Shown here: piece after piece, positions 10,274-23,282 of the stretch
Layout of the letters: each line of letters opens with the position of its first letter
How positions within the stretch are numbered: the first letter of the stretch is position 1
DNA from: Leptolyngbya sp. 'hensonii'
Lineage (GTDB): Bacteria; Cyanobacteriota; Cyanobacteriia; GCF-001939115
Assembly (NCBI RefSeq): GCF_001939115.1
Contig: NZ_MQTZ01000003.1
Location: 62,001 to 126,000 of the forward strand
Direction: 5' to 3'
DNA: 64,000 nucleotides
Program-made: the position numbers and the translations under genes
The notes under the pieces: model-generated
The model's database searches: none
Seen by the model: the letters and a program-made list of their open reading frames with translations, nothing else
What the model was told of the DNA's origin: nothing

Positions 10274-10365
10274 GCCCCACCCCGGTGACGAATAACCCAT
10301 GACCATCCTGACTTCGACTTTTGGCGAATAGTGTCCCTCTCTCCGATCGCAGTAGAGTGACGGCG

Positions 10366-10800
10366 ATGCTATCCGAATTGGGCATGAATCAACTACCATC
10401 GCGTAGCTATCTGGGAACAGGTCTGGGATTTCCTCTCCAGGTCAATGTGCGCGGTAATCTGCAGTTCAGCTCTGGTGAACAAAATGTGGAGGAATCGATC
10501 CGAATTATTCTGGGGACAACGATTGGAGAACGGGCCAGTCGTCCTGATTTTGGTTCTCTCCTGGCCAATTTGACCTTTGCCCCGATGAATACAGACACCC
10601 TGGTGATGTTGTGTATGGCGGTAGAAGATGCCCTCATTCGCTGGGAACCCCGCATTATTCTGGACGATGTCCAGGCTGAACCTGATCCAGTGCGGGGTCG
10701 GGTGGACCTGACGATCCAGTATCACTATGTGGACAGTTACGATCCACGCACAATGGTTTTTCCCTTCTCCCTGCGTCCGGAGGCAGAGGCGGAAGTCTGA
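10366..10800 (+). CDS. GPW/gp25-family baseplate protein of a contractile injection system
   Basis: About 144 residues. The core reads SYLGTGLGFPLQVNVRG, SGEQNVEESIRIILGT, GERASRPDFGSLLANLTFAP and a C-terminal strand segment, the arrangement of T4 gp25 and P2 gpW homologues that initiate sheath assembly in the inner baseplate. The E-R-x-x-R-P-x-F-G signature is present as ERASRPDFG. The start is uncertain: TTG 10321, ATG 10366 and ATG 10384 are in frame and none has a strong ribosome site; the conserved domain begins just after 10384. It is the first gene of an eight-gene co-directional operon that runs to 23282. Confidence 0.88.
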   Translation: MLSELGMNQLPSRSYLGTGLGFPLQVNVRGNLQFSSGEQNVEESIRIILGTTIGERASRPDFGSLLANLTFAPMNTDTLVMLCMAVEDALIRWEPRIILDDVQAEPDPVRGRVDLTIQYHYVDSYDPRTMVFPFSLRPEAEAEV

Positions 10801-10888
10801 ACCGGTGCAGGAATGCCCGGAGGGATAGCCTCGATCCACATTCCCAGTCCAATCGGTATGAGAGAGCAGGCAATTCATTTTAATCATC

Positions 10889-13072
10889 ATGGAATTCCAG
10901 TTTCTTCCCCAATTGCCGAAATCTGACCTGGACGATCGCAAACGCCAGGATCTGGTTGATGAGTGTATTCTCCGGATTCCCCGCTACTGTCCGGAGTGGA
11001 CAAACTACAGTCCCAGTGATCCTGGCATTACCCTGGTGGAATTGTTCGCCTGGATGACGGAGCAAATGTTGACCCGGTTCAACCAGGTGCCCCGGCGCAA
11101 TTACATTGCCTTCCTGGAGTTACTGGGGATGCGGCTGCGGCCTCCTACACCGGCCCAAACTGACCTCACCTTTTACCTGAATACGGTATTGCCCGAGCCC
11201 TATACGATTCCCGAAGGGGTAGAGGTGGCCACGATTCGCACCGAAGGGGAAGATTCGGTCATCTTCAGCCTCGATCGACCCCTGGTGGTGGGCCAGCCCC
11301 AGTTGCGCCACTTTCTGACGGCGGAGGCGGCAGAAGCCCTGCCCCGGCAGTTGCGCGATCGACTCACCGATCGCTGGACCCAACAGCCTGATGGTCGCTG
11401 GGAAGGTTCAGAGCAATTGTTATTTGATGAACAACCCCAGGTTGGGAATTGTTTCTACCTGGTAATGGAACCAGGAGAAACCCTGGAAGGAAATGTGTTG
11501 GCAATTTCCGTGCAGGGAGAGGCTGCAACTGCTACAGGAATTAACCCGAATCTGCCACCCCGATACTGGGAAGCCTGGGATGGGGCCAACTGGCAGCCCA
11601 TCCTGCGCCAGGAAGCCGATGATGCGACCCAGGGTTTCAGCTTCAGTGATCTGGCCCAGGGACGGGGGGGGATTCAGGGGGGAGATGTGATTCTGCACCT
11701 GCCCCAACAATGGCCGATCTCTGTCTTTCAAACCTATCAGGGGCGCTGGTTACGCTGCGTCTATGTTCAACCTGATGCAGAGCAACCGGGGTATAGCCGT
11801 TCCCCCCGGATTGTGAGTCTGGCAGTGCGGGCGATCGGCGGCACTGCCCCGGCCAGTCAATGTACCCTGATTCGGGAGGAGGTCTTGGGTCTAAGTAATG
11901 GGACCTCCGGGCAGACGTTTCAGCTATTTGGGGTGCCTGTCTTGCCTCGGCGGGCTGGGGAGACGATCCAGGTGATGCCCCCGGACGGGTTACCCCAGAC
12001 TTGGCAGGAGGTGCCTGACTTTGCGGACTCTGGGCCGAACGATCGCCATTACGTGATTGATTCTGTGACCGGCACAGTTCAGTTTGGCCCCCTGATTCGC
12101 GAACCTGGTCAGTTACAACTGCAAACCCAGGTCCGAGCCCAAATTCAGGCGGGGCTGCTGCAGGAAAGGGACGAAGAGACCGTGATCCCCACCCCGCGCG
12201 AACAGCAGTATGGGGCAGTTCCCCCCAGGGGTGCGGTGATTCGGATGCTGGCCTATCGGACAGGAGGGGGACAGCGGGGCAACGTTCAGCGGGACGCTCT
12301 GAAGATTTTGAAAACGGCCATTCCCTACATTGCGTCGGTGGTGAATCATGCGCCTGCCCGGAATGGGGCTGATGCCGAAACCCTGGAGCAATTGGCAATT
12401 CGGGTGCCTCGGCAATTGCGCACCCGCAATCGGGCAGTTACCCCCGAGGACTTTGAGACTCTGGCTTTGCAGGCGGGGCAGGGAAGTATTTTGCGGGCAC
12501 GCTGTCTGCCTGCGATCAGTGGTCAGGATGCCGGAATCGTGCAGTTGCTGCTCCTACCCCAGATCAACCTGGAGACGATCGCCTGGAGTGAGGGGCTGCA
12601 CCCAGATCAGTTGATTCTGACCGCCCCCCTGCAACAGCAAGTACTGACTTTTCTAGAGGAACGAAAACTGCTGGGGGTGAGAATTCAACTCCAGCAACCC
12701 GACTACGTGGGGGTGTCTGTGCGGGCAGAGGTGGGAATCTCGCCAGAGTACAACAATCCCCAAGCCCGCCAACTCATCTGGCAACAGTTGCAGACCGCCC
12801 TCTACCGCTTTCTGAATCCGATCGTAGGGGGACCAGAAGGTACAGGCTGGCCCTTTGGTCGCCAGGTGTATACTTCCGACATTATTGTGCTGTTTCAGAA
12901 AGTTCCAGGGGTGCGTTATCTGGAGTTTGTGCAGTTGACGGAGTTGCGGCGTCAGGGAATGGATTGGATTCGCAGTCCCCTGCCAGATTCCAGTATTAAT
13001 CCAGGAGCAAATGGATTAATTTGCTCCTGGAACGGTCCTCAGTCCGGTCATACGATTAGCCTGATCCAGTGA
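10889..13072 (+). CDS. Putative baseplate assembly protein, gpJ/gp6-like
   Basis: 727 residues. The N-terminal segment LPKSDLDDRKRQDLVDECI through SDPGITLVELFAWMTEQM is typical of the large baseplate assembly proteins of extracellular contractile injection systems (the TIGR02243 type), which form the wedge ring like T4 gp6 and P2 gpJ. A long middle beta-rich region (about residues 180-420) is followed by a C-terminal gpJ-like part (about 470-727) with TLEQLAIRVPRQLRTRNRAV and TPEDFE. It follows the gp25 gene by 88 bp and overlaps the next gene by 4 nt (GTGA), so it is probably translationally coupled. It should act in the cytoplasm as part of the baseplate. Confidence 0.88.
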   Translation: MEFQFLPQLPKSDLDDRKRQDLVDECILRIPRYCPEWTNYSPSDPGITLVELFAWMTEQMLTRFNQVPRRNYIAFLELLGMRLRPPTPAQTDLTFYLNTVLPEPYTIPEGVEVATIRTEGEDSVIFSLDRPLVVGQPQLRHFLTAEAAEALPRQLRDRLTDRWTQQPDGRWEGSEQLLFDEQPQVGNCFYLVMEPGETLEGNVLAISVQGEAATATGINPNLPPRYWEAWDGANWQPILRQEADDATQGFSFSDLAQGRGGIQGGDVILHLPQQWPISVFQTYQGRWLRCVYVQPDAEQPGYSRSPRIVSLAVRAIGGTAPASQCTLIREEVLGLSNGTSGQTFQLFGVPVLPRRAGETIQVMPPDGLPQTWQEVPDFADSGPNDRHYVIDSVTGTVQFGPLIREPGQLQLQTQVRAQIQAGLLQERDEETVIPTPREQQYGAVPPRGAVIRMLAYRTGGGQRGNVQRDALKILKTAIPYIASVVNHAPARNGADAETLEQLAIRVPRQLRTRNRAVTPEDFETLALQAGQGSILRARCLPAISGQDAGIVQLLLLPQINLETIAWSEGLHPDQLILTAPLQQQVLTFLEERKLLGVRIQLQQPDYVGVSVRAEVGISPEYNNPQARQLIWQQLQTALYRFLNPIVGGPEGTGWPFGRQVYTSDIIVLFQKVPGVRYLEFVQLTELRRQGMDWIRSPLPDSSINPGANGLICSWNGPQSGHTISLIQ

Positions 13073-14088
13073 GCCTATCCCCGATGACCCAAGCCCGTTC
13101 CAATCAGATTCTGCGTCTCCAATTTCTGCCGACCCAGGTGGCAGAGTCCCATCCCCTTGCTTCCAGCAGTGGTGGGGGCGACCTGTCCATGGTGCTGCAT
13201 CCGGGAGAATCCAGTGAATTGATTGTGCGCCTGAATAACCAGGGTAGCGAATCCCTGGCGATCGATCTGCGTTTGGAAGGAAGCTTGCCCTCGGATTGGT
13301 ATCACATTGGCCTGGAAGGGCTGGACCTGCCTGTGGGACAGGGGATGGACGCGGTGATTTACTTCCGGATCCCGGCTGATTATTTTGAGCAGCCGGGGGC
13401 TCTGAAACCGGATACCGTGCTTACCCTGGACTATCCGATGTACGTTCTGGTGTCCTATCGGCTGGCCTCCCAGGGTCAGCCTCACCTGGAATACACAACC
13501 CTCACCCTCTATATCCGGCCTCGCAGTCGTTACCTGGAACACCTGCCGGTGATTTATCGGGAGGTGGACTTTGTGGGTCGCTTCCTGCAGATATTTGAAC
13601 AGGCGTTTCATCCCGTTGTCCAGACTACGGATGTGATGTGGGCCTACCTGGACCCTTTAACGGCTCCAGAAGCGATGTTACCCTTTCTGGCCCATTGGGT
13701 GAACTGGCCCCTTGATCCTCGCTGGGATCTGGTCCAGCAACGCCGCCTGATTCGCAATGCCTTGGAATTGTATCGCTGGCGTGGAACCCGGCGGGGGTTG
13801 CGGCTGTTTCTGCATCTCTACACGGGGCTACCCCTGGATGATGGGATTCCCCGGGAGGAGGACAAACATATCTGTATTCAAGAAGCCTCCTTTTCTGCCT
13901 TTGTGATCGGTCAGGCTCGCCTGGGAGAAGAAGCAGGGATTGGCCAGGGTCGCCCTTACCACTTTATTGTGCGGCTGCGGCCCATGGTGGACGGTCCACC
14001 GATCGAGGAGCGATTTATTCGACGGCTGATTGAACAGGAAAAACCCGCTTTCTGCACCTATGAACTGTATCTTGAGGTCCCGGCATGA
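13069..14088 (+). CDS. gpI-like phage tail/baseplate protein with N-terminal Ig-like extension
   Basis: 339 residues in two parts. Residues about 153-339 start with YLEHLPVIYREVDFVGRFLQ and resemble the P2 gpI/TIGR02242 tail proteins, which connect wedges or fibres in contractile tails. Residues about 30-150 form a beta-sandwich-like module (LNNQGSESLAIDLRL, a central Trp in SDWY, and a V-x-x-G-Q-G turn) of the type repeated in the two membrane proteins downstream. The start is a GTG overlapping the previous stop (GTGA); ATG 13084 is an alternative. It overlaps the next gene by ATGA. I infer that the Ig module could dock the baseplate to those membrane proteins. Confidence 0.82.
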   Translation: MSLSPMTQARSNQILRLQFLPTQVAESHPLASSSGGGDLSMVLHPGESSELIVRLNNQGSESLAIDLRLEGSLPSDWYHIGLEGLDLPVGQGMDAVIYFRIPADYFEQPGALKPDTVLTLDYPMYVLVSYRLASQGQPHLEYTTLTLYIRPRSRYLEHLPVIYREVDFVGRFLQIFEQAFHPVVQTTDVMWAYLDPLTAPEAMLPFLAHWVNWPLDPRWDLVQQRRLIRNALELYRWRGTRRGLRLFLHLYTGLPLDDGIPREEDKHICIQEASFSAFVIGQARLGEEAGIGQGRPYHFIVRLRPMVDGPPIEERFIRRLIEQEKPAFCTYELYLEVPA

Positions 14089-15458
14089 CCCTGTCCCCGT
14101 TCCTTCGCACCCAACCTTTTGAGCGCCTGCAGGTGTCTGATGGCCTGCTGATTAATGCCGAACGCTGGCAACAGGCCCACACTTACCATCGGGAACGCCA
14201 GAATGTTCTGTATCAGGCATTGCATCAGCCCGGAATTGTTTGGGGATTGGGCGTTTGCCCCATTCCAGCCCCCCAGGATATTCCGGCTCAGTTTCGCGAC
14301 CAGCGCTGGGTGCAGATTCAGCCGGGGATGGCGATCGATCGAATGGGCAATCCCATCATTGTGCCGGAACCAATCGAGTTTCGGATTACTTCCATTCCTG
14401 ATGCGGGCCGTCCGATCACGGTTTACCTGGTGATCCGCTATGTGGATCCCGATCAGTTGCAACAAGTGACGCAGCGAGAATTTGTCCGGGAAACCTTTCG
14501 CCTGGATGAGAAAGGGACACCTCCGGATCGCCTGGATGTGGAACTTTGCCGGATTGTGCTGCAGTATCCGGTGACCCAGATCTCGGCCCCGATCGAGGTC
14601 TTTTCCCCAGCCCCCAATACCCTGGATCTGCGCGATCGGGTCCCAGTTGGAGCCCGTCCCCTCCTGGACATCCGGCTGGCCTACCTGACCAACCCTGGCG
14701 ACACCAGTGCTGCCCCAACGGTGCAGGCCTTACAACGCTTGCTGCAGTCAGCTCCGGCGCTCTATCCGGCTTTGAGTGGAACACTGGAGTCTGTGGCTCT
14801 GGCTGACCTGAATCACCATCCGCAAGCTTACGACCTGCTTTATTTGACAGCTCGACAGCTAGCTGGTTTGCTGGATCCCAGTCTGGACATCCTCAGTCGT
14901 TATGTCAACCAGGGCGGGTCGCTGTTAGTTGGGGTTCCAACTCAGGGCACGGCAGTGGCCGATTTGTGGCCCCTCCAGGGCCAGTTGCAAGAGGCTCTAG
15001 ATCGGCTTCAGGCCGTTTTGCCCCAGGGAGGAGCCCGGGGAGAATTAACCACCCTGCAGCAGGACCTGATTGGGGACCTGACGGGGGTCCGGTCTGATCT
15101 GGAACGGGAAATGGATACCCTGACTCGATCGGTCCATCACTTTGCCCAACGGCTAGGGATAATGCTGGAATCCTTCGATCGACTTCCCCCATCCCATCCT
15201 CTGCGAACTCAGCCGTTCCTGTTCGCAACCCTACCCCTGGTAGACCAGCATCCCCTGCAACTGTGGGTTGGGAATGGTCTGCTGGCTCTGGTGGGGGATA
15301 TACCCGTACTCTGGGGGGGAGAAGGATCGCCCCCGTTCTCGCGCACGATGATTCGAGAGTTGCAGGAATGGGGGCTTAACCTGCTGCAATTTGTGGGTCA
15401 GCGGCGACACCTGACCCAACTCCTACATTTGTCTGATAAGGAGGCTCCTCTGCCATGA
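14085..15458 (+). CDS. Baseplate-operon protein with DUF4159-like C-terminal region
   Basis: 457 residues. The N-terminal part (about 1-185: FERLQVSDGLLINAERWQQA, GMAIDRMGNPIIVPEPI) is a beta-rich domain I do not recognise securely; it may be a baseplate-associated or fibre-adaptor domain. Residues about 185-310 resemble DUF4159, a Rossmann/GATase-like fold: LLDIRLAYLTN, DLLYLTARQLAGL and YVNQGGSLLVGVP. The C-terminal part is helical. No signal peptide or membrane segment is seen, so it is probably cytoplasmic. GAGG at 14074-14077 serves the ATG, which overlaps the upstream stop. It also overlaps the sensor gene by 4 nt. The domain calls are from motif reading only. Confidence 0.6.
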   Translation: MTLSPFLRTQPFERLQVSDGLLINAERWQQAHTYHRERQNVLYQALHQPGIVWGLGVCPIPAPQDIPAQFRDQRWVQIQPGMAIDRMGNPIIVPEPIEFRITSIPDAGRPITVYLVIRYVDPDQLQQVTQREFVRETFRLDEKGTPPDRLDVELCRIVLQYPVTQISAPIEVFSPAPNTLDLRDRVPVGARPLLDIRLAYLTNPGDTSAAPTVQALQRLLQSAPALYPALSGTLESVALADLNHHPQAYDLLYLTARQLAGLLDPSLDILSRYVNQGGSLLVGVPTQGTAVADLWPLQGQLQEALDRLQAVLPQGGARGELTTLQQDLIGDLTGVRSDLEREMDTLTRSVHHFAQRLGIMLESFDRLPPSHPLRTQPFLFATLPLVDQHPLQLWVGNGLLALVGDIPVLWGGEGSPPFSRTMIRELQEWGLNLLQFVGQRRHLTQLLHLSDKEAPLP

Positions 15459-16810
15459 TGCGACTTCCTAAATTCCTCTATCCTCCGGCCTGGCCACTGG
15501 TTGTGAAGATCTGCCTGATGCTGCTGACGGTGACAATGGTTCCCCTCAGCCTGACAACTTTCTACAATCTGAACCAGAGTCTGACGGTTCTAAAGAAGAA
15601 TGAATATCGCCGCCTGGAAATGCTGGCGGCCAGTACGGCGAACCGACTGAATGAGCTGATTCAGGGCATGGAACTGGTGTCTGTCCAGCTCAGTACCCGT
15701 TCTGAGGTGGTTTCGTTCCTGGCGGCTGAAACCCCAGAAGGACGGGACTCACAAAAGACAGCGGTCCAGGCTACCCTGCGAAATATTCAGGATAACTTTC
15801 CAGTTCGGAGCGTATTCCTGCTCGATCGCAATGGAATTAACCGAGCCACCTCCCTGTCCCGCAATTTGGGGGAGAACAATTCCTTTCGCGGGTTCTTCAA
15901 GGAGGCCATGCGGGGGAAGGTCTATGTCTCCAGTATGTTGCTGGATGCCCGCAGCCGTCAGCCCAATATTTTCTTTGCCGCTCCAGTTAAAGATGATGGG
16001 GGCAACGTCGTGGGTGTGGCTGTCCTGGTCTTTAAGGGAGAGCGGGTTTGGGAAATTCTGGATGAGGTCCAGGCGGGCAGTGACGGATTCACGGTCCTGA
16101 TCGATCGGGTAGGGGTAGTGATTGCCCATCCCAATAAAGCATTTCTCTATCACAGTTTGATTCCCCTCTCTGCAGATGATTTGAGGCAGGTGCAGCGGGA
16201 TAATGACTTTGGGATTGCCCAGGTAGACAGTCTGAACTTGCCGAATCTGGCCAAGGCTGTAATCGGCACAAAACAGGTAGGCCACACAGAATATATTTCC
16301 AGCAATGTCTGGAAGATTTTGGGCTATGCTCCCTTGAAGCGGGAGCCTGAATGGGTGGTAGGGGTAGCCTATGAAAAACCACAACTACAAGCCCCGATTT
16401 ATCAACTGGTTCGACACAATATTCTGACGGGGGTAGTGATTGGGGGGATTACCCTGGCCGTTTCACTGCTGCTGGCCCGGGGAATTGTACGACCCATCCA
16501 TCGCCTGACTAAAGTTGCCCAGGATTTGAAGCAGGATCGCCTTAACCCTCAAGAGCTCCAGAAACTACCCCGAGGGGAGGATGATGTGGGACAACTGGTG
16601 GAGGTGTTCATCAGCATGGCCGAGGATGTGCGGGTACGGGAGCATGGGCTGAAGCAACAGGTGAATGAGTTGCATAACCAGATTGAAGTCGTTCGGCAGG
16701 AAAGTAGTAGCACGGGGGATCTGGCCTATTTCCGTCACTTGCGGCAGAAAGTTCAAGCGCTGCGCAGGGCTCACTTGCCTGGTCGATCGAGTGAGGGAAC
16801 AAGAGGGTAA
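15455..16810 (+). CDS. Cache-HAMP transmembrane sensor without output domain
   Basis: 451 residues. TM1 lies at about 13-34 and TM2 at about 322-342. The region between them is a double-Cache-type sensing domain: RSVFLLDRNGINRATSL, FFAAPVKDDGGNVVGVAVL, DGFTVLIDRVGVVIAHPN. A HAMP linker follows (ARGIVRPIHRLTKVAQDL, about 340-395), then a short coiled coil (about 405-425) and the end of the protein. No kinase, cyclase, GGDEF or chemoreceptor tip is present. Chemoreceptors and kinases of this build normally continue for 200 or more residues. AAGGAGG at 15438-15444 precedes the start, and ATGA overlaps the previous gene. Its place inside a baseplate operon suggests a mechanical or signalling link to the injection machine; this is inference. 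Confidence 0.85.
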   Translation: MMRLPKFLYPPAWPLVVKICLMLLTVTMVPLSLTTFYNLNQSLTVLKKNEYRRLEMLAASTANRLNELIQGMELVSVQLSTRSEVVSFLAAETPEGRDSQKTAVQATLRNIQDNFPVRSVFLLDRNGINRATSLSRNLGENNSFRGFFKEAMRGKVYVSSMLLDARSRQPNIFFAAPVKDDGGNVVGVAVLVFKGERVWEILDEVQAGSDGFTVLIDRVGVVIAHPNKAFLYHSLIPLSADDLRQVQRDNDFGIAQVDSLNLPNLAKAVIGTKQVGHTEYISSNVWKILGYAPLKREPEWVVGVAYEKPQLQAPIYQLVRHNILTGVVIGGITLAVSLLLARGIVRPIHRLTKVAQDLKQDRLNPQELQKLPRGEDDVGQLVEVFISMAEDVRVREHGLKQQVNELHNQIEVVRQESSSTGDLAYFRHLRQKVQALRRAHLPGRSSEGTRG

Positions 16811-16834
16811 TGGCATGATACGGAATTCAACAGT

Positions 16835-18979
16835 ATGAATACCAAACTGATCCAGGCCAGCCTCTCAGCCCAGGTCGTGAACTTTCAACCTGGGGGTGCG
16901 GCAGCTGGGTTTGAAGTCCTAGTCGATAATTACAGTGATCGATTTGCCACATTCCAACTGGAAGTTCTGGCTCCGGGAGCGCATGAAACGGGCAATCCCT
17001 CCTGGTACAGACTGTCCCCAGAGGTGGCAGCCAAAAAGCCCCCCGGCGATCGCACCCGGTTTGTGGTGGAAATCCTGGATAGCCCCGTACCGGGATTTTC
17101 CGGTTCCATGAACCTGACCGTGCGGATCTTCTCTCTAGAATTGGGAGAAGAGCGGAAAGTGCTGCGGCTGGTCCTGGGTAAGGGAGCGGATGTTCCTATT
17201 CGAGTAGATCTGCCCGTACAACGGTTTGAGGCCCATCCCCTGGAGCAGGTTAACATTCCCGTATCCCTGGAAAATCAGGGTCAGGATCTGGCATTACTGA
17301 TCGTCACCCTGACCGGGATTCCCCCGGATTGGATAGAATCGGGTCCGGAGCAGCGGCTGCAACTGAAAGCCAGTGCCAGTACAGAGTTGACCTTCCGTTG
17401 TCAGTTGCCGGAAACCATTCGCACCCTCAGTCAGGTCTATTCCTTTACCGTACAGGTGATCCAGGCTCAGGGACCATCCTCCCAGGCCACAGGATTATTG
17501 CAGGTCGTGCCCCAGGGTACGGTCGAGTTCACCTGTCTTCAGACCCAGCAGCAATATCCCCAGCGCTGGGGCATCTGGTGGTGGCGAGCTCCTGTTCTAA
17601 CCCCGTTTCCCCTGCAACTCCGGAACGATAGTAATGTGATCTCAACGGTGCGGATCAACATTGAGACGGAATCTCGGCATCGCTGCATTTTCCAGGTTTT
17701 GCCCGATGATGCGCCCCTGAAACCGGGGGAGGTGACGCCGATCGATCTAGGGGTGCGGGTGCGGCGGTATTGGTGGCGGGGACAGTCTGTTCTGTTACAG
17801 GTCCAATCCCAGGTGGCCGATGCGCGTATTAATGTATTGAATGATACCCTGCTCCTGAAGTTGAAGGTGTTGCCCCGGATTCATCCTGCCGTCCAACTTC
17901 TGTGGCTGGCTCTGATTCTTTATGGGCTCTGGTGGGCGTCCTGGTTGAATCCGGCCAGTCCCCTGTTTGGTCATCGGGGAGCCGTCAATGCCGTCCAATT
18001 GAGTGGAACCAGTGATCAGGCCGTCAGTGCCTCCGATGACCAGACGGTCATTCAGTGGTGGGTGCCCGGTTTCTTCAATCCTTTTCTGAAGCAATATATT
18101 GGCCCCATTTTGCAAGACAGGAAAGCCGTGCGGGTGGTCCGTCTGCGCCCGATCGACAATAACTGGTTGGCCGCTGGTCTGGAGAATGGGGAGATCAAGC
18201 TGCAGTCTCTGGAAGTAGCCCGCAAGCCTCTGACTTTTGCCTATCAGGTGGATGATCGGGTGCTTGATCTACGGTTTACCCGTGATGCTCGCACCCTGTT
18301 TAGTGCCCATGGTAGCGGTCGAGTTCTGCAATGGCAGATCCCCTACGTGCCGGAAGCAGGACCAATATCCGTTTCCAGCCAACCATTGCAGCAAAAGCGC
18401 TTTGACTTTGCGGTGTATGGATTAGCGATCGTGGGCGACCAGACCCTGGCGATCGGAGGACGGTTCAATCAGCTGACCCTCTGGAACTGGGAGAAGGATG
18501 AAGTGCAACCGGTGGCCTATCCCCGTCCAGGGGGACAGGATGCCTACCTGACCAGCCTCACCAGTGCAGAATTTCGGCCCTATTTGCTGGTCACTGCAGA
18601 TAACCAGGGCTACATCACCCTCTGGAATCTGCGCCCCTGTTTGATGGGCGATCAACCCTGTGAAGTACTGGACGAATGGCAGGATGGCCATGGCAAAAAG
18701 CCTGTGCGATCGGTTGCCCTGTCCCCGGAGGGATGTTACCTGAGTAGTGGGGGGGCAGACGGGCGTGTCGTGTTGTGGCCTCTCTCTGCAGACGGACGGC
18801 GGGCTTCCCGGTTCATGCAGGGGATTGAACTGATGCAGGTGGCCAAACCCTTTAATAGTGTGGATGTTCGGGTAGCCCATCAGGATGTCCTGGTGGTCGG
18901 TGGCAATGAGGATTGGCAGGTGCGGGTGGTCCGATCGTCCCGGCTTCCGGCTGCCCTTTGTGATGTGACGGATCGTTAG
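16835..18979 (+). CDS. Ig-like/transmembrane/WD40 fusion protein
   Basis: 714 residues. Residues about 10-345 hold two or three Ig-like (COG1470-style) modules, for example ENQGQDLALLIVTLTGIPPDW. A single transmembrane helix lies at about 353-372 (AVQLLWLALILYGLWWASWL). The remainder is a WD40 propeller beginning GHRGAVNAVQLSG and including SVALSPEGCYLSSGGADGRVVLW. There is no N-terminal signal peptide, and Lys and Arg residues precede the helix (LLLKLKVLPRI), so the positive-inside rule puts the Ig side in the cytoplasm and the propeller in the periplasm or thylakoid lumen. It follows the sensor gene by 24 bp and precedes the next Ig protein by 17 bp. Confidence 0.82.
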   Translation: MNTKLIQASLSAQVVNFQPGGAAAGFEVLVDNYSDRFATFQLEVLAPGAHETGNPSWYRLSPEVAAKKPPGDRTRFVVEILDSPVPGFSGSMNLTVRIFSLELGEERKVLRLVLGKGADVPIRVDLPVQRFEAHPLEQVNIPVSLENQGQDLALLIVTLTGIPPDWIESGPEQRLQLKASASTELTFRCQLPETIRTLSQVYSFTVQVIQAQGPSSQATGLLQVVPQGTVEFTCLQTQQQYPQRWGIWWWRAPVLTPFPLQLRNDSNVISTVRINIETESRHRCIFQVLPDDAPLKPGEVTPIDLGVRVRRYWWRGQSVLLQVQSQVADARINVLNDTLLLKLKVLPRIHPAVQLLWLALILYGLWWASWLNPASPLFGHRGAVNAVQLSGTSDQAVSASDDQTVIQWWVPGFFNPFLKQYIGPILQDRKAVRVVRLRPIDNNWLAAGLENGEIKLQSLEVARKPLTFAYQVDDRVLDLRFTRDARTLFSAHGSGRVLQWQIPYVPEAGPISVSSQPLQQKRFDFAVYGLAIVGDQTLAIGGRFNQLTLWNWEKDEVQPVAYPRPGGQDAYLTSLTSAEFRPYLLVTADNQGYITLWNLRPCLMGDQPCEVLDEWQDGHGKKPVRSVALSPEGCYLSSGGADGRVVLWPLSADGRRASRFMQGIELMQVAKPFNSVDVRVAHQDVLVVGGNEDWQVRVVRSSRLPAALCDVTDR

Positions 18980-18996
18980 CCCGCAGGAGAAGCGTC

Positions 18997-21594
18997 ATGG
19001 TCGATCAATTGCCCATTTATCGCGATCGTCCACCCATGGGGGAGGATGTCCCCGGTTCCATCGGAGGCAAACCCCTGGCAGTGATTCTCAGTCCGCTGGG
19101 TGACCATACGGCGGCGGCAGGGTCCACTCTGGAGCTGAGTGTCGCTGTTTTTAATCGGGGTGGGCAGAATGCCATCCTCCATATCTACTTGAGTGACCCC
19201 AGCGAAACGGTGAATCGATGGTGTACGTCTCCGTTTGAGCGATTGGCGATCGGGCCAGGGCAGAGCAGTGACGTGCTATTCCGGCTGCAGGTCCCCACCC
19301 AGACCTTACCGGGCACCTATCCCTACCAGGTGATTGTGGACGCGCCTCAGCATTACCCGGAAGATACCCCGATTCAGTACAATCAGCGGCTGCAGGTGCT
19401 GCCTCAGGTGGAGTCTGTTGTCCAGGTGAGTGACCCCACCTTCACCCTGGAGCCCATTACCACATCGCTCCAGCCAGCGGTCTTACAACCAGGAGGATCT
19501 CTGGATGTGCGGGTTCAGGTCTACAATCGCTCCAATCGGGTCGATCGATTTCGCCTCAGTTGTCCAGATCTAGATCATCGCTGGTTTAAGGTCATTTACC
19601 CACAGGGGTTGCTCACCCCTGGGCTGATTAGTAGTGGCAGTGGCCTGGAGCTGAATCCGGGCGATCGAGGTGAGATTCTGTTGCGGCTCAGTCCACCGCC
19701 CGAAGCTCTGGCGGGCAGCTACACGCCGACCCTCCGACTTTATTCGACCAATCAGCCCCAACTGGCGTTGTTGGATGCCTTTTACCTGGAAGTCACACCG
19801 ATCGATCTGATGCAGGTGGAATTGCAGACCCTGATCGGCAAAGTGCGGCAGACGGTGGGGCTCTATCGGGTCCAACTAACCAATCGAGGGAATACACCCC
19901 GGGAGTTGTTGTTAGGGGCTCACAGTGTCGAAGAAGAGGAATCCCGCCTCTGTCAGTATCGCTGGGCTGACCCGGAGAATGCCAGGGCAGATTGGCTCCC
20001 GGTACGATCGACCGGGACCGATGGCCCCCCTGTCACCCTATCCCCCCTGATTCCAATCCTCCCTGGCCAGTCAATCGGCGTTGACCTGGAAGTGAAACCG
20101 ACCCGGGCCTCTCGCAGACCCTGGCTAGGAAATGGCCGGATTTTTAACTTCAGGGTAGACCTGAAAGATCCGCAGCAGCGGCCCCTACCTCTGGAATATC
20201 TGCAGGGTAGCCTGCTCTGGCGAGCCCGGCCTTTCTGGCAATTCCTGTTGTTGCTGCTGACGGCCCTGGGGGCGATCGGAGCCCTGGCCTTTTTGATCTG
20301 GTGGCTGTTCTTCCGTCCTCCCCTGCCCTCCAGGGTGTTGGAACTGACTGCCGGAGATTTGGCTTACGAAGAGCTGAATGGGAAACCGGTTCGCCTCAAC
20401 TGGCAAATCAGCAATCCTAAGCGTATTGGTAAACTGCGCCTGGTCGGTCTCTCAACTGAAGATGGTACAGTTCTGAGTCAACCGGTTGTCTATGACTTCA
20501 GCCAGGGGTTGCCGAATCCCCTGAAGCCTTTCTGCACCCTCGATCGAGTGCTGACCTGTCGCTATGTGCCGACGGATGCCCATCGAACTGGCAGCTATGT
20601 GTTTGAGTTGCAGGTTCAACCCCGAAAAGAGAATGCCTCCCCATTGGATACGGCTAAGACGAACCCGATTAAAATCAGTCCCCTGCCCCTGCCCAAAATT
20701 TTAGAGTTGGGGCCAACGGAGCCAATCTATCAGGAACCCGCTAATCCGGTGGCAAACTCCACAGACGGTCAAATTCTGTTGAACTGGAAAGTAGCCAATC
20801 CCGGTCTGCTTCAGGAAGTTCAGTTGATAGGCCGGTCTCCCGACAATACGGTTGTAGTGCCGCTGCAGCGATTCGACTTCAGTAGTGGTGTGCCATCGAC
20901 TTTGCAGTCCTTCTGTGTGATTCAGACGGCATTGGTGTGCCGTAAGGTCCCGATCGAGGCCCGCAAGCCGGGAGATTACATCTTCGAATTGCTGGTCACC
21001 AGCCGCACGGCTCCAGAGGAACCCGTAGCCAATCGGAAAACGGACACGGTGCGGATTAAGCCCCAGCAGGTGCCGATCCAGATTGTGAAATTCCTGATTA
21101 ATGGGCAACCGGCAGAGCCCCGTCTGGTGCTGCTGGTGCAGCCGGATCAGCCTCCTCCTCCCTTGCAAATCTCCTGGGAAGTGACGGGTGGCCGGGGCCT
21201 GAAAGTGACTCTGTTACCGGCTCCTGGCACGGTTGGTCTGTCGGGAACTGTCCCCTACAGTCTCAGTACCCAACCTCGCCAGGAAACTCTGACCCTGCAG
21301 GTGACAAATGAAATGGGGGAACAGGTGACCCGATCGGTGACGATCGAAACCGTAAATCCCCCAGCCCAGCCCCAGGTATCCCCGGAACAGATGGCTCCGG
21401 CTCCTGGAAGTCAACCGGCCTTCTCTCCGACAGACCCAACCGGCTCGGCTGGTTTTGGGAGTCCCGCTTCCCAACCCGGTGTTGCCCCCGGTGCGACCTC
21501 GGCCCCATCTCCTGGTAGTGACCTGCAAGGGCCAGTTCCAGTCCAACCGGGAACCCTTTCCCCCGTTGATGTCCCCCCTCAGTTCGATCGATGA
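18997..21594 (+). CDS. Large single-pass membrane protein with Ig-like modules and duplicated Cys-pair domains
   Basis: 865 residues. Three Ig-like modules precede a transmembrane helix at about 412-438 (FLLLLLTALGAIGALAFLIW). After it come two similar domains of about 85 residues: one from GKPVRLNWQISNPKRIG to SYVFELQV and one from DGQILLNWKVANPGLLQ to DYIFELLV. Each has a Cys pair about 10 residues apart (FC...CR). A third, shorter relative (LQISWEVTGG) and a Pro/Gly/Ser-rich tail close the protein. AGGAG at 18985-18989 supports the ATG. No signal peptide is seen, so the Ig modules are predicted cytoplasmic and the Cys-pair domains lumenal or periplasmic. It overlaps the TPR gene by ATGA. 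The family is not recognised by name. Confidence 0.78.
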   Translation: MVDQLPIYRDRPPMGEDVPGSIGGKPLAVILSPLGDHTAAAGSTLELSVAVFNRGGQNAILHIYLSDPSETVNRWCTSPFERLAIGPGQSSDVLFRLQVPTQTLPGTYPYQVIVDAPQHYPEDTPIQYNQRLQVLPQVESVVQVSDPTFTLEPITTSLQPAVLQPGGSLDVRVQVYNRSNRVDRFRLSCPDLDHRWFKVIYPQGLLTPGLISSGSGLELNPGDRGEILLRLSPPPEALAGSYTPTLRLYSTNQPQLALLDAFYLEVTPIDLMQVELQTLIGKVRQTVGLYRVQLTNRGNTPRELLLGAHSVEEEESRLCQYRWADPENARADWLPVRSTGTDGPPVTLSPLIPILPGQSIGVDLEVKPTRASRRPWLGNGRIFNFRVDLKDPQQRPLPLEYLQGSLLWRARPFWQFLLLLLTALGAIGALAFLIWWLFFRPPLPSRVLELTAGDLAYEELNGKPVRLNWQISNPKRIGKLRLVGLSTEDGTVLSQPVVYDFSQGLPNPLKPFCTLDRVLTCRYVPTDAHRTGSYVFELQVQPRKENASPLDTAKTNPIKISPLPLPKILELGPTEPIYQEPANPVANSTDGQILLNWKVANPGLLQEVQLIGRSPDNTVVVPLQRFDFSSGVPSTLQSFCVIQTALVCRKVPIEARKPGDYIFELLVTSRTAPEEPVANRKTDTVRIKPQQVPIQIVKFLINGQPAEPRLVLLVQPDQPPPPLQISWEVTGGRGLKVTLLPAPGTVGLSGTVPYSLSTQPRQETLTLQVTNEMGEQVTRSVTIETVNPPAQPQVSPEQMAPAPGSQPAFSPTDPTGSAGFGSPASQPGVAPGATSAPSPGSDLQGPVPVQPGTLSPVDVPPQFDR

Positions 21595-23282
21595 AACCCT
21601 CTTTTATTTCCCATCTCGCCACAATAACCCTGGTTGGGAGTTTCCTGGGTCTGGGTCAGGGAGTTCTCCTGGCCCAATCTCAACCGGGGGGCTTAAGCAC
21701 GTTGCCGGATTTTGACTACTGGGCCGATCGCTGCCGCACCCTGGCCCAGGCCGACCAGTTGGAACAGGCTATCCCGGCCTGCGAACAGGCGATCGCCCTG
21801 CGCTCTGGAGATAAAACCCTCTGGATTTTGTATGCCGATGTCCTCTATCGCCTGGGCCGCTATGGGGAGGCGGCGGCGGCGGCTAAATCTGCCCTGCGCT
21901 ATGACGATCGCAATTCGGAAGCCCTTACTTCCCGCTGTCGGGCTTTGCTGGCAATTCATCAGTATGAGGCGGCGATCGCCGCCTGTGCCCAGGCGTTGGA
22001 GGTAAATGAAAACTGGGGAACCCTGACCCCAAAGCTGGCCTGGTTTAAGCAGGGATTAGCCCTAGTCCGGGTAGGTCGTGCCGCAGCCGGTATTAAAGCC
22101 TATGATGAATCCCTTAAGCTAGACCCGCGCCAGTCTGGGGTTCTGACCCATCGCTGTCAGGCTCTCTTGCAACTGGAGACGTTCGAGGCCGCGATCGGTG
22201 ATTGTCGTCAGGCCCTGGATGTGGATGCCCAGTGGGGTGGTCAGTCGCCCAAGTCGGCCTGGAATGCCCAGGGAAGTGCCCTCCAGATGCTAAAGCGGTT
22301 GGAGGAGGCGGTGTTTGCCTATGATCAATCCCTACGTCTGGATGCCAAACAGCCGATCATCTGGGCCAAACAGGGGTTGATCCTACGGGAACTCGATCGG
22401 GACGCGGATGCCCTAGTGGCCTTTACCCAGGCGGTACAGAGCAAGCCGGATTACACCCTGGCCCTAGTCAATCAATGCACCCTGCTCAACCAGTTTGGCC
22501 AGTATGACGCAGCCCTGCGGGCCTGTGAAGCAGCGATTCGGGGGGATGGCTCTTGGGGGCCTTTAGGCCCAGCCCAGGGCTGGGATCAGCAGGCCAATGC
22601 CCTAGCTGGCTTGCGACGCCTGGAGGAGGCCCTAGCTTCGGCGGAACGGGCGGTGAATATGGCTCCCGACTACCCGACAGCCTGGAATAATCGGGGGGTG
22701 ATTCTCTGGTCCTTGCAGCGATATGATGACGCCCTGACTTCGGTCGATCGAGCCCTGGAACTGCGGCAGGATTATGCCCGGGCCTGGTTCAACCGGGGGC
22801 GAATTCTGCGGGAGTTGGGGCGCTATGCGGCAGCAGCGCGGGCCTACGATGAGGTGATTCGCTTGGAACCGGAGAATGCCCTAGCTTGGGCGAATCAGAG
22901 TGCCGTCCTCTGGCAGATGAAACGATATGATCTGGCCTTGAGGGCTGCTGATGCCGCGATCGATCGTCAGCCCAGTCTGGCCCTTGCCTGGTATAACCGA
23001 GGCACGGCTTTGAGCAGCCAGGGGCGTTACAGTGAGGCGATCTCAGCCTTCGATCGGGCCCTGGAATTGACCCCCACCGACACCGGGAGTCTGACCGGGA
23101 AGGGGTTGTCCCTGGTGGCGATCGGGGAGGACGAAGCCGCCGTTCCTGTTCTGCAGCAGGCACTCCGGTTGAATCCCAACCAAATTCTGGCCCAGGAAAA
23201 CCTGAAACAGGCGGCGAAACGAATTCTGCTGCGGCAGAAGGAGGAGCAGGAACGGAAGCGGCAGGAACAGATGAAAAAATAA
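21591..23282 (+). CDS. Exported TPR-repeat protein, last gene of the baseplate operon
   Basis: 563 residues. A signal peptide covers about 1-28 (ATITLVGSFLGLGQGVLLAQS). About twelve TPR units follow, with typical patterns such as AWYNRGTALSSQGRYSEAI and AWNNRGVILWSLQRYDDAL. The C-terminus is a charged helix (QKEEQERKRQEQMKK). TPR proteins are scaffolds for protein complexes. The ATGA overlap with the preceding membrane-protein gene implies coupled translation and a shared role, probably on the far side of the membrane from the baseplate. The gene ends only 2 bp before the convergent panB stop, with no visible terminator between them. Confidence 0.88.
   Translation: MKPSFISHLATITLVGSFLGLGQGVLLAQSQPGGLSTLPDFDYWADRCRTLAQADQLEQAIPACEQAIALRSGDKTLWILYADVLYRLGRYGEAAAAAKSALRYDDRNSEALTSRCRALLAIHQYEAAIAACAQALEVNENWGTLTPKLAWFKQGLALVRVGRAAAGIKAYDESLKLDPRQSGVLTHRCQALLQLETFEAAIGDCRQALDVDAQWGGQSPKSAWNAQGSALQMLKRLEEAVFAYDQSLRLDAKQPIIWAKQGLILRELDRDADALVAFTQAVQSKPDYTLALVNQCTLLNQFGQYDAALRACEAAIRGDGSWGPLGPAQGWDQQANALAGLRRLEEALASAERAVNMAPDYPTAWNNRGVILWSLQRYDDALTSVDRALELRQDYARAWFNRGRILRELGRYAAAARAYDEVIRLEPENALAWANQSAVLWQMKRYDLALRAADAAIDRQPSLALAWYNRGTALSSQGRYSEAISAFDRALELTPTDTGSLTGKGLSLVAIGEDEAAVPVLQQALRLNPNQILAQENLKQAAKRILLRQKEEQERKRQEQMKK

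Follow-up and report, generated by a model that had tools for sequence, protein, structure and literature searches.

A contractile injection system very probably split over three loci in a cyanobacterium, with a baseplate operon encoding a candidate membrane-docking module

Described intracellular systems and the operon

Contractile injection systems (CISs), membrane-bound CISs and CIS-linked membrane proteins are already known. Two questions about the intracellular systems are how they come to a membrane and which cue makes them fire. The closest solved relative of the system considered here is the cytoplasmic CIS of Streptomyces coelicolor (PDB 9gtp, 8bky), which is nearest in its sheath, J and spike and gives the best structural match of gpI; a separate bitopic membrane protein, CisA, serves that CIS and is needed for its firing (PMC12237407). 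Further relatives of the Streptomyces CIS are the cytoplasmic CISs of Roseiflexus/Deinococcota, lineage IId (PMC12998442); that account gives no close cisA homologue for Roseiflexus, and we found in it no description of an Ig-TM-WD40 or sensor module. Among cyanobacteria, Anabaena has a thylakoid-anchored CIS (PMC8894136; PDB 7b5h), in which the anchor is the C-terminal transmembrane (TM) helix of Cis13 and Cis11 is extended and cage-bearing. It resembles the present system in being a cyanobacterial intracellular CIS, in its membrane attachment at the baseplate side, as we propose here, and in weak Cis12/Cis13 family similarity, and differs from it in J type, in the Cis13 TM helix and in having no counterpart to the separate membrane proteins and sensor found here.

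The window, by which we mean the whole 64-kb stretch of DNA analyzed, is part of contig C3 of the 5.94-Mb, 99.98% complete genome of Leptolyngbya sp. 'hensonii'. Positions 10366-23282 hold eight closely packed genes with intact frames, all on the + strand, with 4-nt overlaps at the g2/g3, g3/g4, g4/g5 and g7/g8 junctions and, at the others, one gap of 88 nt and two of 24 nt and 17 nt:

g1, 10366 (ATG)-10800, +: gp25/Cis9-like sheath-baseplate linker (PF04965, 1.9e-21); alternative start TTG at 10321
g2, 10889-13072, +: baseplate J protein, Cis11-like, without the long cage extension (TIGR02243, 1.1e-191)
g3, 13069-14088, +: gpI/Tail_P2_I protein, Cis12-like, with an extra N-terminal Ig domain of NEW3/ASH-like type (TIGR02242, 2.6e-37)
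g4, 14085-15458, +: Cis13-like candidate baseplate adaptor with an N-terminal domain, a DUF4159-type domain and a helical hairpin (CIS13_fam, 8.6e-10)
g5, 15455-16810, +: two-TM sensor with an extracytoplasmic dCache domain, HAMP and a short cytoplasmic tail (dCache_1, 1.4e-22; HAMP, 6.7e-6)
g6, 16835-18979, +: N-terminal Ig-type domains, one TM segment and a C-terminal WD40 propeller (WD40, 1.7e-16)
g7, 18997-21594, +: N-terminal Ig domains, one TM segment near residue 412 and a C-terminal Ig-like region (NEW3, 1.1e-6)
g8, 21591-23282, +: TPR protein with an N-terminal hydrophobic segment (TPR_2, 1.3e-63)

Our ORF and HMM calls bear out the initial annotation in its reading of these genes as a co-directional gp25-, gpJ- and gpI-like set with DUF4159-like, Cache-HAMP, Ig-TM-WD40, Ig-TM-Ig and TPR proteins, and in its statement that the operon has no sheath, tube, spike, PAAR or CIS AAA+ ATPase gene; the window as a whole has no sheath, tube or spike. 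All of these except PAAR were found outside the window. By its genes, the genome encodes a CIS in the broad sense: gp25, J, gpI, sheath, tube, spike, cap and AAA+ ATPase are all found, at three loci.

In comparison with the Streptomyces CIS, the features peculiar to this system are the three split loci, the Ig domain on gpI, the two Ig-TM proteins with a sensor, and the Cis13/TssK-like adaptor g4, the Streptomyces structure having no tail-fibre-like part. In the openly accessible literature we found no description of the combination of a sensor slot, two Ig-TM proteins, an Ig domain on gpI and scattered genes. Overall, we believe the best explanation to be a baseplate with a dedicated membrane module at which the particle docks, and we put the probability of such docking at about 0.6. 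That the sensor gates firing is less certain than docking and is suggested tentatively. The membrane used could be the cytoplasmic or the thylakoid membrane.

The sensor slot and the Ig-domain membrane proteins

The TM segments of g5 lie near residues 8 and 321 and the protein ends soon after its HAMP domain. The domain search found no enzymatic output domain in g5, leading us to suspect that its signal would be relayed by contact. Sensor genes recur at this position: in 26 of the 62 loci having both g4 and g6, the slot between these two genes carries one or two TM-containing sensor genes, and it is empty of a sensor in the remaining 36. The 16 slot sensors searched with Pfam combine HAMP with an ectodomain that is dCache, Tll0287-like or unassigned, and half of them also have a cNMP_binding domain. 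On the J tree we count at least five changes of ectodomain type, and the dCache and Tll0287-like ectodomains appear from their sequences to be interchangeable, with HAMP kept. By eye, we also noticed a common tail after HAMP in slot sensors, ending ...L..RS...R.

The proteins encoded by g6 and g7 match each other in profile comparison (E 1.5e-17 over 452 columns) and are related across their whole Ig and TM part, so that g7 appears to be a paralog of g6 over this region. The TM segment of g6 was called at the family level, and the charge bias of the two proteins indicated no clear membrane orientation. Their architectures differ from that of CisA, as judged from the description of CisA alone. 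A g8 homolog follows g7 in a minority of loci and is therefore a recurrent, not a constant, neighbor. The Pfam scan of g5 to g8 identified no TssL/TssM-like or TssJLM domains. Two side observations concern g7 in other genomes. At one locus g7 is followed by a gene for a single-TM protein of 641 aa that has a protein kinase domain (L038:14689-16614, +), and in many f12/g82 genomes without a full J, proteins of about 500 aa match only the TM and C-terminal Ig half of g7.

The extra Ig domain of g3 (about residues 36-150) can be aligned to the first such domain in g7 (93.8% probability) and with one Ig domain of g6 (86.1%). The best PDB match of the g3 model (mean pLDDT 76) was the S. coelicolor CIS baseplate chain 9gtp_A, followed by many Ig, PapD-like and MSP-type domains; as the Streptomyces chain has 179 residues, the Ig part of g3 is an addition. 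These alignments suggest that g3 in the baseplate may contact the membrane proteins g6 and g7 through Ig-Ig interaction, although a common Ig fold need not imply contact, the fold being widespread.

The membrane proteins and sensor might instead regulate how the CIS is expressed or assembled, or might shield the cell from it, and have no part in docking or firing. HAMP, and the cNMP-binding domain present in some relatives, can act via partner proteins; a histidine kinase and a response regulator are encoded in the sheath locus on contig C47; and WD40 and TPR domains are generic scaffolds. However, none of the 16 slot sensors was found by Pfam to have a kinase, cyclase, phosphatase, MCP signaling or DNA-binding domain, and the genes form a tight operon specifically with baseplate genes, the Ig domain being common to the membrane proteins and the baseplate gpI. 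For these reasons we consider a regulatory or protective role unlikely.

Baseplate affinities and the g4 adaptor

The gp25 gene g1 and the J gene g2 are each present in a single copy in the genome. Among solved structures, the top match of g1 was a separate protein, by annotation a putative tail lysozyme, and the second was S. coelicolor gp25 (9gtp), at 88.8 bits as against 49.7 bits for Anabaena. The initial annotation had proposed an HMM check for TIGR02243 and TIGR02242, and when this was run both g2 (727 aa) and g3 exceeded the NCBI cut-offs; g3 also matched Tail_P2_I (1.9e-9) and, weakly, CIS12_fam. The J protein matched S. coelicolor J (9gtp) at 388 bits. At E<=1 it had no match to Cis11 of Anabaena, in a structure library that contained other chains of the Anabaena structure 7b5h, which were matched by the sheath, spike and gp25 searches. 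Among solved structures, the sheath and spike encoded elsewhere in this genome were, like J, matched best by CIS proteins of S. coelicolor.

In the type VI secretion system, TssK links the baseplate to the membrane complex. Two PDB chains matched the predicted model of g4 (pLDDT 88.5, pTM 0.86) in Foldseek at E below 0.001, both of them TssK, the top one at E 6e-4 and prob 0.95 with a TM-score of 0.2 and 12% identity. With so low an overall TM-score the predicted resemblance is a local fold match only, and a sequence-profile search of the PDB with g4 returned chance-like matches only. The CIS13_fam match of g4 is likewise weak, being below the cut-off and confined to the N-terminal part, and hydropathy predicted no TM helix. 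The DUF4159 match, weak in g4 itself (0.0021), was found in 20 of 27 homologs (best 4.4e-17). The likeness to the type VI system therefore lies in the TssK matches of the model and in the similar position between baseplate and membrane that we propose for g4, whereas the overall TM-score is low, the C-terminal domain of g4 is of DUF4159 type and g5 to g7 have no TssL/TssM-like domain. Another TssK-like protein by description is the eCIS fibre class eBAP3, encoded downstream of gp25/J/Tail_P2_I and reported in Bacillota and Actinobacteriota, with classes eBAP2 and eBAP4 being assigned to Cyanobacteriota (PMC12923769). As g4 is Cis13/TssK-like, we refer to the operon system as a relative, and not a member, of the Streptomyces-type cytoplasmic CIS.

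The helical hairpin of g4 coincides with the slot sensor, which is present in 26 of the 43 loci with the hairpin and in none of the 19 without it (p 2.5e-6). The hairpin changes about two times on the J tree and the independent hairpin/sensor pairs number one or two; we therefore rejected the link as an established result and retain it as a lead.

The initial annotation had also drawn on the thylakoid-anchored CIS of Anabaena, in which anchoring is via Cis12/Cis13 extensions. Such a reading is consistent with the cyanobacterial host, with the weak CIS12_fam and CIS13_fam matches and with the presence of membrane proteins in the operon. It is, in our view, improbable, because the J protein is far nearer to its Streptomyces counterpart, as are the sheath, spike and gp25, and g4 has no TM helix; membership in the Anabaena type was rejected on the J type and the lack of the Cis13 helix.

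The remaining loci and the distribution of the module

The sheath, tube and spike genes lie on two other contigs. Contig C47 encodes the genome's one sheath, near three gp19-type tubes, a Pvc16-type cap, an AAA+ ATPase and eCIS_core proteins. The interval from the tube genes to the cap gene holds a LuxR-type response regulator and a histidine kinase, both named by eye (L002:9017-10989). Contig C41 encodes the genome's one VgrG-related spike, adjoining a CIS_tube protein, and a fourth tube gene. A 1894-aa proline/alanine-rich ORF with no NCBIfam match (L008:11413-17097, -) separates a gp19 tube gene there from the genes for CIS_tube and the spike. Of the genes that the initial annotation had proposed to seek genome-wide, sheath, tube and VgrG-like spike were therefore present, whereas a search of the genome with PF05488 found no PAAR; it is possible that a divergent tip, or the spike's own tip, takes its place. 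The three loci hold single copies that complement one another and belong to one lineage, and are best taken as the parts of one divided machine, a simpler reading than a sheathless device. We hold with high confidence that the CIS is split and has a membrane module dedicated to it.

The gene order gp25-J-gpI-g4-(sensor)-g6-g7 recurs in 40 J neighborhoods of other genomes, in several of which cis7 and the spike are immediately upstream of gp25. The same order is found across dozens of genomes in many cyanobacterial families, which places the arrangement beyond chance. All 80 named loci retrieved with g7 were cyanobacterial, many with this order. In Nostoc and Pseudanabaena, g6/g7 adjoin AAA+ ATPase, cap or sheath genes, and at some g7 loci they lie beside spike genes; in both situations J falls outside the stretch that was fetched.

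Among 390 genomes of the class, 95 had a full J (best E <= 1e-139), 102 had g7 and 100 had g6, from genome lists compiled by hand, the g7 count leaving out, again by hand, genomes that match only the C-terminal or middle part of g7. Overlap was extensive (J+g7 in 91/95, J+g6 in 89/95, g6+g7 in 95/100, all three in 88), with very small Fisher p-values that ignore phylogeny. A sheath (PF04984) was found in 88 of the 95 full-J genomes; re-searching the seven others with our own sheath protein gave fragments in two, and most of these exceptions are fragmented drafts. In 16 hand-picked near-closed genomes, each of no more than nine contigs, J and sheath lay between about 20 kb and 2.8 Mb apart (often 0.4-2.8 Mb) and g7 could be 0.5-2.5 Mb from J, the genes still co-occurring. 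Co-occurrence kept despite lost linkage is a stronger argument than the p-values. We take it as very probable that g6 and g7 are parts dedicated to the CIS. In some genomes we observed two full TIGR02243 baseplate loci (G334 and G106; loci L039-L042).

The HMM calls and the sheath counts thus support the proposal of the initial annotation that the operon supplies one half of a contractile injection machine, namely its baseplate and membrane parts. Its other proposal, that the baseplate has been put to new use in a membrane sensor complex, which would then stand by itself and not inject, fared poorly and we regard it as very improbable. It would account for an operon standing alone without sheath, tube or spike, and for G196 (five contigs, 99% complete; L064), in which gp25, J, gpI, g4, the sensor, g6, g7 and a CIS-type AAA+ ATPase are present and no sheath was detected by PF04984 or with our own sheath protein. 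It conflicts with the one sheath and one spike, plus the tubes, cap and ATPase of matching lineage, which this genome encodes at two further loci, and with the general presence of a sheath in full-J genomes. A prophage or tailocin remnant, which the phage-tail homology might suggest, is hardly credible given the gene order kept across many families, the intact frames, the eCIS-type ATPase, the Pvc16 cap and the location of the split loci amid ordinary chromosomal genes.

In the docking model that we favor, gp25, J and gpI from the operon would build the baseplate of one CIS, nearest in sequence to the Streptomyces cytoplasmic CIS, and the two other loci would supply the sheath, tube, cap, ATPase, cargo and spike. 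The particle would assemble in the cytoplasm and dock baseplate-first on the inner face of a cell membrane, with g4 as a TssK/Cis13-like adaptor and the Ig-domain proteins g6 and g7 forming the anchoring site. The sensor g5 would read a cue from across the membrane and pass its signal by contact, promoting firing, and by analogy with Streptomyces the purpose would probably be stress-triggered self-targeting. More speculatively, g5 may be one version of a plug-in TM sensor that fires an intracellular machine, its exchanged ectodomains feeding a contact-only HAMP output to a TssK-like adaptor held by the Ig-TM-WD40 and Ig-TM-Ig proteins.

In roughly one in four of the sampled cyanobacterial genomes (88/390 with J, g6 and g7) the baseplate comes with a conserved membrane module, and in many of these also with a sensor gene; the named genes allow direct tests of docking and firing. 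Searches for CISs that are confined to one cluster overlook systems split over several loci. If the plug-in sensor reading is true, many cyanobacteria would have a CIS into which a signal receptor is built.
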